A stretch of 36,602 bases of DNA from an uncultured Lachnospiraceae bacterium (GTDB lineage Bacteria > Bacillota > Clostridia > Lachnospirales > Lachnospiraceae), in the NCBI GenBank assembly GCA_947631665.1, contig CANRMF010000019.1:1-36602 (forward strand), given 5' to 3'. The position numbers and the translations under genes are program-made. Shown here piece by piece: positions 1-27,499 of the stretch. The notes under the pieces are model-generated. The model worked only from the letters and a program-made list of their open reading frames with translations, was not told the origin of the DNA and did no database searches. The first letter of the stretch is position 1. The number at the start of each line of letters is the position of its first letter.

Positions 1-25
1 CGGCATCCTTTGCCCTCCTTTCCTT
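1..25 (-). promoter_or_regulatory. Ribosome binding site and first two codons of a gene cut by the window edge
   Basis: On the minus strand a GGAGGG Shine-Dalgarno at 18-13 is followed after six bases by ATG at 6-4 and then CCG. This marks a gene that continues beyond the left edge; only Met-Pro is visible. It begins about 60 bases after the giant helicase frame closes, so it could be the next gene of the operon or the first gene of an element inserted into the helicase gene. Confidence 0.55.
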
Positions 26-64
26 ATGTATTTTTTCATTTAGACGAGTATCTTTTCATCGTCC

Positions 65-3000
65 TCAAAAATTATAGCCCTCAGGAGCAAGTTCCATTTC
101 CGTAGTGCTTTCGCCAAATGTCGATGCCCATGCATCAAAAAAGTTTAATCCAAGTTCTTCCAGTTTATTGAACTGGAGGTATCTCATATTGGTATACATT
201 TCCGTCATGCTGTTGCTGATTGGCGTTCCTGTTGCAAAGGTAATTCCCTTTCCGCCGGTTATTTCGTCCATATATCTGCATTTTGCGTACAAATCCGATG
301 ACTTCGCGGCTTCAGAACTGGATAAGCCGGATACATTTCTCATTTTTGTATAGTGATATAAGTTTTTATAATAATGGCTTTCATCAACAAACAAACGATC
401 TATTCCCAACTGTTCAAATGTAACAACATTGTCTTTTTTTGTGCGGTCGTTTAGCTTCTCCATTTTAATATTTAACTGCTTTCTGGTTTTTTCCATCTGT
501 TTAATGGAAAATTTATCTCCTGTTGAATATTTTACGGTGCGCAGGGCAGTTTCAATTTCATCAATCTGACTTTTAATGCTTGCAATCTGCCGTTCAATAG
601 ATAACGGAATTTTTTCAAACATAGAGTGTCCAATGATTACCGCATCATAATCGCCTGTTGCAATCCGGGAACAAAACTTTTTTCTATTTTGTGGTGCAAA
701 ATCCTTTTTCCCTGCGGCAAGGATTTTTGCTCCGGGATACAATCTCAGGAAGTCCTTTGTCCAGTCATTGATTAAATGGTTTGGAACAACGAACAGTGAT
801 TTTTTGCATAATCCAAGCCGCTTACTTTCCATTGCTGCGGCTGCCATTTCAAAAGTTTTGCCAGCTCCGACGCAATGGGCAAGTAATGTGTTCGGCCCAT
901 AAATCTGTCTTGCAACGGCATTTTTTTGATGTTCCTTTAACGCTATGTCCACAGACATTCCCGGAAAAGTTAAATTTTCTCCGACATATTCCCTCGGTCG
1001 AATGGAATTAAATAGTTTATTATATTTTTGGGTTATTTCCACACGTCTTTGACGGTCAGAAAACAACCAGTCCTTATACGCTTCCTTTAAAGTTTCCTGT
1101 TTCTGAAGAGCGACTGTCGTTTCTTTCTGATTTAATTTCCTCGATTCGGATCCGTCGGGATTTCTTATCGTATCATAAACCTGTACGTCCTTTAAATTAA
1201 GTGTATCCTCCAAAATTTTGTATGCATTGATTCTCTCTGTTCCATAAGTGGTCGTAACAAGAGGATTAAATTTATCCGAATTCTTTCCATCAATACGCCA
1301 TTCATGAGTATACTCCGAATATTTGACTTTAATGCCTTGATACCTCAACAAATATGGTGCAGGTTTTAAAGTGTCTTTGATAAATTCATCAATAATCTCC
1401 GGTTCAATCCATGTTGCTCCTAGCCTTACGTCGATTTCAGAGGCGTCTAATTCTTTTGGCTGCACATTTTCGAGAGCAGAAACATTTGGCAGATATTCAC
1501 TGTTATTTTGTGCAAAATTTCTGGCAACGGCAAGCTTACTGCGAACATTACCGGATAAATACTCATCTGCGGTTTCCCACAAACCGGACGCTGGATTTTT
1601 GAAAATAACTCCTGTTAATTCCTGCACGAGCGTTTCCTCAGACTTTCCAGTCAATTCACTCATATAATCAAAATCCACTTTTCCTTTTTCCGTTATGGAA
1701 AGCGTCAACGCCTCCGCAGCGGTATCAACAGAAGTTACCCTTTCTATTTTTTTGATTGTTCTCTTAGTAAAAATATCTGCTTTCCTGACAAATTGGTCGT
1801 TTTCAAATTCTTCAAGAGAACAAACCATCGGATAACCTGAATCCACATTGAAATATTTTGCATTGGTCTTGGAATTGATCCGGCCATATTTTTTTTCAAA
1901 ATTATCATACAGTTCATTCAGATGTTTCTGGGATTGTTCTATTTCCAAATCGCTTGAATCATTAAGCTGCAAATCAATCAGCTCATAGGTACTCTTGCGG
2001 ATTTCCACCAGCATTTTAATTCTTTCTTCCTGATTTTTCGGAATCATTGCCGGAAACATCACCGAATTTTCCCTGTAATACAGTTTATCTTCCTGCAGCG
2101 CATAAGCGAAATTCATCGCCAAAGGATCCGCCGGGATTACTTCTTCATCTTGTGATCCAAAGTCCAAATCCATTTCCGGCAGAGCAATGCTGCCGGTAAT
2201 TCTACCAAGTGCATCTGACAGTCTTTCCTCAAAATTCTGGTTCTCATCTAAACTGCAGGTACTCGTCATGCCAAATGGGCCAGATACCATTTCCATCTTT
2301 CCTACAATCATCTCCGGGTGATCTACAAAATAACTGTTCATGAGAATTCCATCGTTATTTTCTTTCGTGGAAATCCATTCCGATACATCGTGCGATATGG
2401 CATCTCTTTTCTGCAGGAACAGAATGTCCGATGTGACTTCCGTACCGGCATTTAACTTAAATGCCGTATTTGGTAACCGTACTGCGCCTAACAGTTCCGT
2501 ACGCTCTGCGAGATACCGCCTTACCGTTTCATCTTTTTTATCCATCGTCCCCTTGCTGGTAATGAAAGCAATAATCCCTCCAGCCCTGACCTTATCAATG
2601 GCTTTGGCAAAAAAGAAATCATGAATTAAAAATTTTTCGTTCTGATATTCTTTATCATTTACCCGATAATCTCCAAAAGGAACATTTCCAATGCAGAGAT
2701 CAAAAAAATCATTCGGATAATCTGTTTTTTCAAATCCCGTAATTTCAATTTTTGCAGAGGGATAAAGTTTTTTTGCAATTCTACCTGAAATTGAATCCAG
2801 TTCCACACCATAAAGCCTGCTTTCGTCAAACTTATCCGGCAGCATTCCAAAGAAATTTCCAATACCGCAGGACGGCTCCAATATATTGCCACGTATAAAA
2901 CCCATTTTTTCGATTGTATGATAAATCCCCCGTATAATGACAGGACTGGTATAATGAGCGTTCAGTACGCTCGCACGGGCAGAATGATATTCCTCCTGTG

Positions 3001-6000
3001 TCAACAAACCCTTCAGTTCGGAATACTCTTTACTCCATGCGGGCTTGTTTTCATCAAAAACGTCAGCAAGTCCTCCCCACCCAACATATCCGGACAAAAT
3101 TACCTGTTCCTCATAACTTGCATTCCTGTTTTCAGTTTCAAGTGTTTTTAACGTTTTCAGAGCGTCGATGTTTTTCTGGTATTTTTCCTTCGGTGTTCCG
3201 TTTCCCAGTAAATCATCTGTTATCTGATAATTTTCTGCCGGTATTTGTTTCGATTCCCTGTCAGCAGAATCCTCCTCCGGATTATCATTATCAAATGCTT
3301 TTTCGAGAACATCAGCAAATTTTTCTGGTATTTCTGATGTTTCCTCAAGACTGTTTTCTTCCGACAATATTTCGGAATACTCCCTTTTAAACTGCTCTAA
3401 AATTTCCTCTGAGGTACTGGAAAGGCTTGTCACTTTACCAGCAGCGGAATACTCGATATGCACTTCGTGGTCATTAAAACTATAATATTCATTTCTTAAA
3501 GGCTGTGCCTGTATTTTGATATTATTAAACCATATACTAAGGAATTGATTCAGTTCGAGGATTTCCTCATCTTTGACTGCTTCACGGTAAATCCCCATGC
3601 CGGAATTTTCGTAAGATATGGCAGATAGCTCCTGTTTATCCTTATCTATCCAAACCACGATTTCCGGATCACGCATCAAATCGCCGTTTTGTACATATGT
3701 ATGCATTATGGAAAAACAGTCGTTTCCAATAAATTCAACACTAAGCGGTTCATACGTTACACTATCTGAGGAAAAATGTTTATATGTACAGTTTCTGGAA
3801 AGCATATTTGGAAACATTTCATCAAACTGTCGATACAGTCTGTGTTTTGAAATATTCTCGGAAACAGTTTTATCAGGCGATTCCGTCTTCTGATTTTCAA
3901 TCGTCTGTATTTCTTCTTCTGACAGGTATTGCCCATGGCGGATTAACGCAGCAATTCTTCTTACTGCATTATTCCAAGATAAACGAATGGTAGCCAAGGG
4001 ATTTTGAATACTTTCTTTTGAAATTACAATCCCTTTTGCATCATGATTTTCATAACTCTTTCCCCCAATTCCTAACGCTAGGGAACGTCCCCCGCTGCCA
4101 TATTCCTTTTTTAGAAAATCCTCCCTCTTTGATTCGCTAAAATTATCTCGGAAAAATTCATAGATCCGTTTTTTACTGCCGGAGACATTTGAACCATGCA
4201 ATAGCACGCTATCTATTTCCTCTTTGGTAATAAAATTTACTTCCGGCAATGGAACATCATCTGAAAGCGGGTATGTTTTATAGGGCATTGACAAATTATA
4301 AAGGTCATCAATCAGCATTCGGTTCTGTTTGCGAGTGCGAACACCCATCGCTAGATTGTTCTCGTCAAGTTTCCATAAAACATTTGAAATTTCACGAATT
4401 TTTTCCGGTTCAGATAAATAATTGATTTCTTTACCACGGAACGGATTTTCTTCCAAATTGTCGTTCAGATGAAACTGCAATAGTAAAGCAATCTCTTTTT
4501 TTACATATTCATCAGATAAAAATGCTTCCTCTTTTGATATAAATCTCCCTGTGGTGATTAGTTCCTGCGTTTTTTGTGTGACGCTGTCCCAGTCAATCAG
4601 TTTTGTATTTTCCCCCAAAGCTGTTGTTCCTTTTGCTACGTTCATACCGCTGGCATTAAACCAAACCGAGTATTTATTGCCATCTATAATCAGTCCGGAA
4701 CCTGTAGACTCATATTCTTTCCGGAGAAATTCTTTAAAATTAACAACAGACTGATCATGGATATACCGCTGGTACACGAAATAATTGCTTTTCTCCCTTT
4801 TCCCACCAAGTTTTATTCCATCTTCAATCACTTGCTCCGGGATAGAAAAAGTGGCAGCATCAAGAGTATTTTCTTCTCTTTCAACTGCCACTGCAATATT
4901 TCCTGACTGTTCTTTAAAGTCCGGAAGGAACGTCATTTGAACAAAATCAGAAGTCTGTTCTAAATCGGATAAATCACTTCTTCCTTCACTACTTCTTCCG
5001 CTCTCTGGCGGATATTGTTTACCCTGCGCACCCATTCCAACTGGTTCTCGGCTTTGAGTTTCTCTGTCACGCCCTCGATATTCATCATCTGACTGACGAG
5101 GCTGGTAAACATCTTCTCCGCCCGATCCTGTATCTCCAACAGACGAATCCGCTCCTCGCCGCGCCACAGCCATTCTTGAAACTTCGCCTCGTTCCGTTCT
5201 CTCAGATAATCCATTGCCATCAATCCCCACTTCGTCAGCGGTTCGTCCGGCTGCTCTTTCAATGTCAGGTTCGGTATCAGATAATCTCCGCATTGAGTGT
5301 ATTCCAGTTCCATTTTCATTTCCTCCTTTTAAATATTCAATCTCTTTGTTGCGTTCTTCATTCTTTCTGTTGTTATTATAAAACGTATGTTCGCTTTTGT
5401 CAATCCGACTTTCCACTATTCCATATTTCATGTTATAATTGCGAATTATCCGTCCAATTGAAAGTAACATCGAGTCATTTATTTGCTGTATGGACGTCCC
5501 GATAGACTGAACGCTCCGCATCGTATTAAAATTTTCAATTCCGGAAAAATCCAGACTTGCTAATATATCGCTTTCCATGTCGCATCTTGACAATATAGAA
5601 TACGCAATGCTTGATGAAAGAACTGTCTGATAACGTGACTTTAATTCTTCTTTCGGAAGTCTTTCCAATGCGCTGCCTTTTGAATTTTCCAAAATGAGTT
5701 CGATGTTGCTTTCCACTTCCATAGCTGCAAGACGATCTGCAAGCTGAGTGATGGCAGATGCAAAATTTCCCTCAGGCAGATGTACGCGATATATATCCTC
5801 AAAATATTTTAAAATTTCAGTCTGATGCATTTGGCGGAATACCCACAGATAAGGATACCTGCCAATGTTTTTCACCTTTGTCACATCTGAAATATCAAAA
5901 ACATACCGTAATTTCTTTTTGCCTTTTAAATCTTTATCAATTAACGCAATTCCCTTTGCTCCGCGATTTACCCAGCAGTGCATTTTGGAATTCCATGTAT

Positions 6001-6178
6001 TTAGCGAGGCACAGGCTTCTGCCGCTGGTTTCTGGGCATAAATAAGCACCTGCGATGCAAAATCGTACCGATACACCTTTGCAGAAGCCTGCAAAAAACT
6101 TTTCCACTCAGTAGGGGAAGCAACTATCCTGTCGAGTGTCGTCTGATACAATTTTTCAATATCTTCCAGTTTAGCCAT
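65..6178 (-). CDS. Giant N6-adenine DNA methylase / SNF2-type helicase, C-terminus missing
   Basis: This 2037-residue protein belongs to the very large methylase-helicase proteins carried by Tn1549-like conjugative elements. Their role is not settled; DNA protection or anti-restriction during transfer is usually suggested. Visible order: a basic N-terminal region; a Gly/Arg/Ser/Glu-rich linker at about residues 287-410; repeated LKKEYG..GG-type modules (about 400-800); an N6-methylase domain with motif I EPSCGIGNFFG near 1100 and the NVPFG active-site motif near 1166; then an SNF2 helicase with Walker A HCVGAGKT (about 1767), DESH box (about 1928) and FATGTPISNS (about 1980). The frame ends with TGA soon after ELAPEG, before helicase motifs IV-VI, so the second RecA lobe is absent. 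ATG at 6178 lies directly after radC. A second gene, tnpV, is embedded in the linker in another frame. Whether the product is functional is uncertain. Confidence 0.85.
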   Translation of the reverse strand: MAKLEDIEKLYQTTLDRIVASPTEWKSFLQASAKVYRYDFASQVLIYAQKPAAEACASLNTWNSKMHCWVNRGAKGIALIDKDLKGKKKLRYVFDISDVTKVKNIGRYPYLWVFRQMHQTEILKYFEDIYRVHLPEGNFASAITQLADRLAAMEVESNIELILENSKGSALERLPKEELKSRYQTVLSSSIAYSILSRCDMESDILASLDFSGIENFNTMRSVQSIGTSIQQINDSMLLSIGRIIRNYNMKYGIVESRIDKSEHTFYNNNRKNEERNKEIEYLKGGNENGTGIHSMRRLSDTEPDIERAAGRTADEVGIDGNGLSERTERGEVSRMAVARRGADSSVGDTGSGGEDVYQPRQSDDEYRGRDRETQSREPVGMGAQGKQYPPESGRSSEGRSDLSDLEQTSDFVQMTFLPDFKEQSGNIAVAVEREENTLDAATFSIPEQVIEDGIKLGGKREKSNYFVYQRYIHDQSVVNFKEFLRKEYESTGSGLIIDGNKYSVWFNASGMNVAKGTTALGENTKLIDWDSVTQKTQELITTGRFISKEEAFLSDEYVKKEIALLLQFHLNDNLEENPFRGKEINYLSEPEKIREISNVLWKLDENNLAMGVRTRKQNRMLIDDLYNLSMPYKTYPLSDDVPLPEVNFITKEEIDSVLLHGSNVSGSKKRIYEFFRDNFSESKREDFLKKEYGSGGRSLALGIGGKSYENHDAKGIVISKESIQNPLATIRLSWNNAVRRIAALIRHGQYLSEEEIQTIENQKTESPDKTVSENISKHRLYRQFDEMFPNMLSRNCTYKHFSSDSVTYEPLSVEFIGNDCFSIMHTYVQNGDLMRDPEIVVWIDKDKQELSAISYENSGMGIYREAVKDEEILELNQFLSIWFNNIKIQAQPLRNEYYSFNDHEVHIEYSAAGKVTSLSSTSEEILEQFKREYSEILSEENSLEETSEIPEKFADVLEKAFDNDNPEEDSADRESKQIPAENYQITDDLLGNGTPKEKYQKNIDALKTLKTLETENRNASYEEQVILSGYVGWGGLADVFDENKPAWSKEYSELKGLLTQEEYHSARASVLNAHYTSPVIIRGIYHTIEKMGFIRGNILEPSCGIGNFFGMLPDKFDESRLYGVELDSISGRIAKKLYPSAKIEITGFEKTDYPNDFFDLCIGNVPFGDYRVNDKEYQNEKFLIHDFFFAKAIDKVRAGGIIAFITSKGTMDKKDETVRRYLAERTELLGAVRLPNTAFKLNAGTEVTSDILFLQKRDAISHDVSEWISTKENNDGILMNSYFVDHPEMIVGKMEMVSGPFGMTSTCSLDENQNFEERLSDALGRITGSIALPEMDLDFGSQDEEVIPADPLAMNFAYALQEDKLYYRENSVMFPAMIPKNQEERIKMLVEIRKSTYELIDLQLNDSSDLEIEQSQKHLNELYDNFEKKYGRINSKTNAKYFNVDSGYPMVCSLEEFENDQFVRKADIFTKRTIKKIERVTSVDTAAEALTLSITEKGKVDFDYMSELTGKSEETLVQELTGVIFKNPASGLWETADEYLSGNVRSKLAVARNFAQNNSEYLPNVSALENVQPKELDASEIDVRLGATWIEPEIIDEFIKDTLKPAPYLLRYQGIKVKYSEYTHEWRIDGKNSDKFNPLVTTTYGTERINAYKILEDTLNLKDVQVYDTIRNPDGSESRKLNQKETTVALQKQETLKEAYKDWLFSDRQRRVEITQKYNKLFNSIRPREYVGENLTFPGMSVDIALKEHQKNAVARQIYGPNTLLAHCVGAGKTFEMAAAAMESKRLGLCKKSLFVVPNHLINDWTKDFLRLYPGAKILAAGKKDFAPQNRKKFCSRIATGDYDAVIIGHSMFEKIPLSIERQIASIKSQIDEIETALRTVKYSTGDKFSIKQMEKTRKQLNIKMEKLNDRTKKDNVVTFEQLGIDRLFVDESHYYKNLYHYTKMRNVSGLSSSEAAKSSDLYAKCRYMDEITGGKGITFATGTPISNSMTEMYTNMRYLQFNKLEELGLNFFDAWASTFGESTTEMELAPEGYNF
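4960..5313 (-). CDS. tnpV: TnpV-like protein, nested in another frame inside the giant helicase gene
   Basis: This 117-residue protein matches what I remember of TnpV, a small protein of unknown function found in clostridial transposons and conjugative elements. The N-terminal signature ELEYTQCGDYLIPNLTL is characteristic, followed by a helical charged body (EKLKAENQLEWVRRVNNIRQRAEE) and an ending near VIYPI. It is on the same strand as the giant gene but in another frame, over the low-complexity linker. ATG at 5313 is preceded by AAGGAGG with eight bases of spacing, near ideal although it lies within another coding sequence. An ATG six bases earlier (5319) is too close to that site. Shadow frames rarely carry both a family signature and such a site, so I call this a real overlapping gene. 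Its role is not known. Confidence 0.82.
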   Translation of the reverse strand: MELEYTQCGDYLIPNLTLKEQPDEPLTKWGLMAMDYLRERNEAKFQEWLWRGEERIRLLEIQDRAEKMFTSLVSQMMNIEGVTEKLKAENQLEWVRRVNNIRQRAEEVVKEEVIYPI

Positions 6179-26731: not shown

Positions 26732-27499
26732 TTATGATTCAGGAAATTTTTCCTGAAGAATTTTTTCATATGCATTCTGAATCCCCTTTGAATGTTCATC
26801 ACTACCGTTCTGATTATCCGGATGAAAGATTTTCATTAAATCCCTATATCTCTTTTTTAAATCATCAATGCTGTCGCAATTTTGGAACAGTTCCATATAG
26901 TAATCTTTTCCCGGATCCGAATGAACATTGTTTTGGTAGTCCGCTTGATTATATTCATAATGAGATTCCTGCTCAGACGTCTCTTTCTGCTTCGATTTGT
27001 GAAACGTATAAAAATAGCCATCTCTATTATATGAATTGCTATACGAATTGTCAAAATACCCCTGCTTCTTTTTCCATCTACGGTTTTCTTCGCGTAAATA
27101 ATCCTGATATTCCTCATCAAGAATACTTTGCCATGCTGCAACGTGCAGACAAATTGCCACCACAAAAACAAGCACCGTCCAGAAAATAGTCCAGCCTTTA
27201 TCAACATTGTCCTCAGAACACGAAAACCATATCAAAGCTGAAAATCCTGCGGAAAAAAGAACTGTCAGAATGTAACGGACTGCACGAAAGGTTATAATCA
27301 GGGTATATAATAATAATCCGGCAATAATCCCAATGGCCACTCCCATTGCAGGGTGCATTATTTTTAATTCGCTGATGCTAAGCGAAACAATCGAAAAAAC
27401 CATAACCGATTCCCCGATAATGATATTTTTTAAACACCCCAACAGGGCACCAGAAAAGATAAACAATAAAACTATCTGATATGTTTCTAGTTCTGACAT
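26732..27499 (-). CDS. Polytopic membrane protein with C-terminal J domain
   Basis: 255 residues. The first 125 hold about four membrane helices (for example YQIVLLFIFSGALLGCL, GVAIGIIAGLLLYTLII, TIFWTVLVFVVAICLHVAA). A charged linker rich in Tyr/Asn/Gln follows (about 130-205). The last 50 residues are a J domain with the HPD motif at 226-228 (RYRDLMKIFHPDNQ), which stimulates DnaK/Hsp70 ATPase. It could recruit the host chaperone to the membrane to fold or disassemble a transfer or surface complex. AAAGGAG precedes ATG 27499. It is the first gene of a two-gene operon with the HTH regulator. Confidence 0.82.
   Translation of the reverse strand: MSELETYQIVLLFIFSGALLGCLKNIIIGESVMVFSIVSLSISELKIMHPAMGVAIGIIAGLLLYTLIITFRAVRYILTVLFSAGFSALIWFSCSEDNVDKGWTIFWTVLVFVVAICLHVAAWQSILDEEYQDYLREENRRWKKKQGYFDNSYSNSYNRDGYFYTFHKSKQKETSEQESHYEYNQADYQNNVHSDPGKDYYMELFQNCDSIDDLKKRYRDLMKIFHPDNQNGSDEHSKGIQNAYEKILQEKFPES

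Follow-up and report, generated by a model that had tools for sequence, protein, structure and literature searches.

A tnpV reading frame nested on the same strand within the linker of a giant methylase-helicase gene

The Nested Gene Pair

The present analysis concerns a 36,602-nucleotide stretch of DNA from an uncultured Lachnospiraceae bacterium (assembly GCA_947631665.1, contig CANRMF010000019.1), referred to as the window, and two genes on its minus strand. The larger one (65–6178) encodes a giant protein of 2037 amino acids (aa) composed of a weakly matching ArdC-like N-terminal domain, a linker, a DUF6908 domain, an Eco57I-type methylase and an SNF2-type helicase. Inside the linker lies a second gene, tnpV (4960–5313, minus strand), which runs from ATG to TAG over 117 aa in frame +1 relative to the host gene. 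The two very probably form a genuine same-strand overlapping pair that is widely conserved in conjugative elements of gut and other Gram-positive bacteria, and in which the giant is read through and TnpV is produced from an internal ribosome-binding site in this other frame. From the patterns in the DNA described below, we infer that both products would be translated.

A preliminary description of the window, made from its letters alone, had already proposed a complete TnpV in another frame of the same strand. The reading frame indeed matches the Pfam family TnpV (PF14198) with E=1.6e-36 and 125.1 bits (cut-off 27) over profile positions 1–111 of 111, and the host frame stays open over all of its 2037 codons. 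Embedded at host residues ~289–407, it is the single TnpV match in the genome of the window. Within the family sample, 155 of 299 genomes contain a TnpV match, compared with none of 14 control genomes.

AlphaFold models the window TnpV with a mean predicted local distance difference test (pLDDT) value of 92.5 (33 sequences) as a short hairpin followed by helices. For the first 650 residues of the giant, the mean pLDDT is 58 (6 sequences), with both flanks better modelled than residues 255–442, where it drops to ~25. This segment with pLDDT below 50 (4853–5416, minus strand) corresponds to the host linker that encloses tnpV and is predicted to be disordered. Given the confident TnpV model and the low-confidence linker, the folded protein encoded here is therefore most likely TnpV, while the giant would supply a flexible tether.

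Conservation of Place and Frame

Relatives were gathered with the N-terminal domain of the giant (5315–6178, minus strand; alignment A2) as sole query, i. e. without using tnpV. Matches to this domain, partial ones included, were present in 127 of 397 genomes of the family sample, 78 of 291 of the class sample and 22 of 299 of the phylum sample. The family search covered its 30 loci and 96 further listed places, picked by score and open-frame length and not by tnpV, while the class and phylum searches covered the automatic loci. Giants were judged if the N-terminal match comprised at least 150 residues, and after removal of duplicates (6 duplicates and 18 short hits set aside) 170 distinct giants were obtained. 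In 162 of these, tnpV adjoins the end of the N-terminal domain in the identical relative frame. The remaining eight comprise three giants free of tnpV, i. e. L162 with a cut-short gene, L226 with a frame of 601 codons and L229 with a long frame, as well as five that cannot be judged, two of which have a host reading frame that ends early and three of which reach the end of the contig or locus. Intact giants with a broken tnpV, which the preliminary description had named as counter-evidence, were looked for and were not seen as a rule, with tnpV missing in three of the 170. When loci found via tnpV are added, the gene is present in 164 of 172 giants (26 exact duplicates and 18 short hits set aside), and in 161 of these 164 copies it is complete and wholly nested; L103 and L147 run into contig ends. 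Divergent tnpV copies that a first model had missed (L243, L245, L257) or split (L251) were recovered with a second one. A survey that started from tnpV instead yielded 98 sites in 96 loci, at 19 of which, two being the window itself, the same frame is open through the gene in a long reading frame.

The same layout is found in plasmids of Listeria innocua (pLIS40), Enterococcus faecalis (pMP8-1), E. wangshanyuanii and Ruminococcus albus (pRUMAL02). The embedded frames of all four exceed the Pfam TnpV cut-off of 27 bits (28.7, 52.5, 54.8 and 31.5 bits, respectively), and the gene tables list merely an “SNF2-related protein”. The tables of Cohnella herbarum and Monoglobus pectinilyticus show the reverse: they contain TnpV and lack the beginning of the giant, with the host frame open over 2086 and 2559 codons, respectively. 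In these two records (L314, 9001–15213, and L315, 9001–16665), the frame of the giant is open throughout. At L314, a minus-strand hypothetical gene is annotated over the N-terminal part of the giant. A seventh record, from Subdoligranulum, contains the tnpV match of the layout and has no annotated features there. Both genes are listed in full in none of the six annotated records that were opened, with the provision that the plasmid gene table omits pseudogenes and that a pseudogene label in the original records is possible. The earlier expectation that annotation drops tnpV thus applies to the four records that list the giant alone, while in the other two it is the start of the giant that is absent.

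Selection on the Two Frames

The ratio of nonsynonymous to synonymous substitution rates (dN/dS, omega) was estimated from 42 independent pairs of overlapped copies with a mean divergence of 7.5%. It amounts to 0.28 for TnpV (bootstrap 95% interval 0.23–0.33), whereas the host linker displays 1.33 (1.11–1.60) at sites that change TnpV and 0.71 (0.58–0.89) at TnpV-silent sites. TnpV is under purifying selection and the residues of the host linker are near-neutral, just as had been predicted for a constrained inner and a varying outer frame. At 1–12% divergence, the three codon positions account for similar shares of the differences in embedded (0.25/0.16/0.59, 30 pairs) and stand-alone tnpV (0.26/0.16/0.58, 12 pairs). 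At 25–40% divergence, the third-position share is slightly lower in embedded copies (0.46 vs. 0.52), as weak host constraint would give.

The host frame is nevertheless free of stops. In 95 nested clusters none was found, compared with 3.1 expected per copy and a mean chance of none of 0.038, a count that was made on copies chosen as nested. For this expectation, TnpV-silent codons were resampled with the codon usage of the embedded genes themselves in 160 of the 161 nested copies. Among 61 stand-alone clusters, a set biased toward copies that are close to the window TnpV or have a high Pfam score, the corresponding host frame contains 6.4 stops on average and is stop-free in none. At positions where they would make a stop, codons ending in T occur in 0 of 2383 cases in embedded copies, which restates the lack of stops, vs. 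24% in stand-alone ones. The G+C content also differs, with 0.514 for embedded and 0.457 for stand-alone tnpV.

In the reverse experiment, the host protein was kept and its synonymous codons were resampled, upon which the median TnpV score over the 95 clusters collapsed from 142.7 to 9.5 bits. Of 1900 resampled copies 1893 were scorable, and every one fell below the observed score (95 of 95 clusters). Given the host protein, the TnpV match is thus more than chance.

Putative Initiation Signals of tnpV

In the window, the motif AAGGAGG (5322–5328, minus strand) is located 8 nucleotides upstream of the ATG at 5313, as the preliminary description had noted, and reads as a putative internal ribosome-binding site of tnpV. 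A second in-frame ATG at 5319 is a less suitable start, because it is separated from this motif by only 2 bases. Across the relatives, 162 of 164 tnpV copies start with ATG. At least six bases of AAGGAGG are found just upstream in 118 of 164 copies, compared with 0.7% of comparable segments of host N-terminal DNA, although this count is somewhat inflated, as the start was picked with the Shine-Dalgarno motif in view. The spacing between motif and start is 7 nucleotides in 113 of 161 copies, and 157 of 161 display some match. The combination of an ATG with an AAGGAGG-like site at steady spacing hence bears the signature of ordinary internal initiation within the coding sequence of the giant.

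Alternative Explanations

Several observations weigh against the proposed overlapping pair. The amino acids of the host linker are little constrained, so that it is the open frame that speaks for translation across it, and the stop count behind this openness comes from copies selected for nesting, just as the motif count is affected by the choice of starts. L265 has an intact tnpV with a host-frame stop within the overlap, which is the sole such case among the 164 copies. Moreover, L226 and L229 share the N-terminal domain and have a different linker and no recognisable tnpV with stops. The window itself is not an ideal representative either: its TnpV is divergent and forms a long branch in a TnpV tree, and its giant is probably truncated at the 3’ end, either truly or through an assembly fault. 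The protein stops at 2037 aa (window 1–120, minus strand) just past a conserved stretch, while a relative of 2559 aa runs ~530 aa further; the contig ends 64 bases beyond the gene, and the sole match for the missing part in the genome (37%) is on a different contig. As an aside, L226 and L229 offer natural tnpV-free comparisons.

Conceivably, only tnpV is real, with separate genes for the N- and C-terminal parts of the giant and a host frame that is open between them by accident. The near-neutral linker residues and the two records that list TnpV without the start of the giant would fit this explanation. Yet, 161 of 164 copies have an open host frame and two of the other three lie at contig ends, while 3.1 stops would be expected per copy and 6.4 are found in stand-alone tnpV, which makes it highly unlikely. 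The opposite possibility, in which only the giant is real and TnpV is an echo of its linker, would explain why four of the six annotated records list the giant alone. It is exceedingly unlikely in view of the omega value of TnpV, the collapse of its score on host-codon resampling, its confidently predicted fold and the existence of stand-alone tnpV genes with both other frames closed. A further alternative accepts both frames and lets TnpV arise by ribosomal frameshifting from the host frame, fused to the N-terminal domain of the giant. Such a shift would be possible in most copies, since the stretch upstream of the tnpV start over which neither frame has a stop has a median length of 20 codons. 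Yet, 11 of 161 copies have an in-frame stop at most five codons before the start, and the nearly invariant ATG and the regularly spaced AAGGAGG-like site are features of a start. Frameshifting is less likely than internal initiation and, taken by itself, quite improbable.

Lastly, stand-alone tnpV genes may have entered the linkers of giants in many independent insertions. A tree was built from 202 TnpV proteins, of which the applied rule classed 101 as embedded and 101 as stand-alone. It contains 20 changes of state, at least seven of these changes being forced by well-supported branches, and a mixture of this kind is what repeated insertion would produce. However, a single origin with later escapes would equally lead to this mixture, as would recombination or a poorly resolved tree, and place and frame are identical in 162 of 162 cases. 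In addition, L265 and L372 were counted as stand-alone and yet retain a host N-terminal part upstream; some of the state changes are breaks of the host gene next to tnpV and not moves of tnpV itself. Repeated insertion is rated as unlikely as frameshifting.

Origin and History of tnpV

A smaller TnpV tree contains 10 state changes, at least five of them forced. The midpoint root has embedded copies on either side, and at many points stand-alone copies branch from within them. At the loci of the class sample that were read, 28 distinct copies were embedded and 61 stand-alone. This mixing in poorly resolved trees is compatible with repeated escapes from the giant. Because embedded copies invariably share their frame and their position within a homologous host gene, a single origin followed by many escapes is the simplest account, although recombination and poor resolution preclude a firm conclusion. 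The TnpV family might even have been born by overprinting in the linker of the giant, been kept there in elements of present-day Clostridia and Bacilli and escaped repeatedly as the stand-alone tnpV of mobilisable transposons, a tentative scenario that we consider possible and rather doubtful. The preliminary description had suggested that the host accepted a tolerant linker for the sake of a second gene; this is just one order of events, as tnpV may have been born in place.

The Host Gene and Its Surroundings

Pfam scores of the window giant are 27.6 bits for SNF2-rel_dom (cut-off 24.9), 25.8 for Eco57I (25.3) and 70.8 for DUF6908 (27). With 14.1 bits, ArdcN remains below its cut-off of 22.6, whereas the Listeria relative reaches 25.4. 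The giant at L098 (5878–10857) additionally matches MutS domain I at residues 1328–1409 (E=1.9e-6). Neighbouring genes encode a RadC-like protein, a MobA/VirD2-type relaxase, a VirB4-type ATPase, a lysozyme-like protein, SSB, an actin-like protein and a DUF3991/Toprim protein. The relaxase, the ATPase and the other surrounding genes thus identify the region as a conjugative element. The window contains a further nested pair of same-strand reading frames, i. e. 26732–27499 (255 aa) and 26857–27207 (116 aa), both on the minus strand.

Proposed Mechanism and Implications

Taken together, the giant would be translated straight through its linker, while ribosomes entering at the internal binding site at the end of the N-terminal domain would read the linker DNA in frame +1 to give TnpV. 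Selection would then act on the TnpV sequence, and the host linker would mainly be kept stop-free and flexible. As both products would come from a single message of the conjugative element, the output of TnpV may be tied to that of the giant. TnpV is probably made upon activation of the element or its arrival in a new cell, and it could serve as a small partner of the giant or as an independent helper at an early stage of transfer or establishment.

To our knowledge, hardly any long same-strand overlap whose inner frame belongs to a conserved family is known from bacteria, phages excepted, and searches of the open-access literature yielded no description of the tnpV/giant overlap. Since nearly every sampled relative of this widespread kind of conjugative element contains the overlap, it becomes possible to measure in many lineages in which direction and at what tempo overprinting proceeds and what it is used for. 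The overlap also exposes an annotation fault. Furthermore, it ties a small, enigmatic protein of mobilisable transposons to a DNA-processing giant of conjugative elements, which provides a hint for the search for the function of TnpV.

Comparison with Known Systems

The window TnpV belongs over its full length to the same family (PF14198) as TnpV of the Tn4451-type mobilisable transposons. In these transposons, tnpV is a stand-alone gene, whereas in the window it is embedded in another one. Based on homology with lambda Xis, a role in excision has been postulated for TnpV of Tn4451 (PMC3158075). A comparison of the predicted TnpV fold with the PDB gave no clear match, and no Xis-like match appeared, an absence that does not exclude such a likeness. 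The ArdC-N/methylase/SNF2 giants of conjugative plasmids, for example pLIS40 of L. innocua, resemble the window giant in their ArdC-like N-terminal domain, which is a weak match in the window, and in an embedded tnpV at the same place and in the same frame. Their gene tables list the giant alone, and the window copy is shorter. For Escherichia coli, two reports propose overlapping genes in which one stretch of DNA gives two proteins and which annotation has missed (PMC4683798, PMC7103648). The E. coli cases are reported to involve an orphan gene of recent origin and an antisense frame, whereas in the window a conserved Pfam family lies within a pair on one strand, an arrangement that is spread over many genera.
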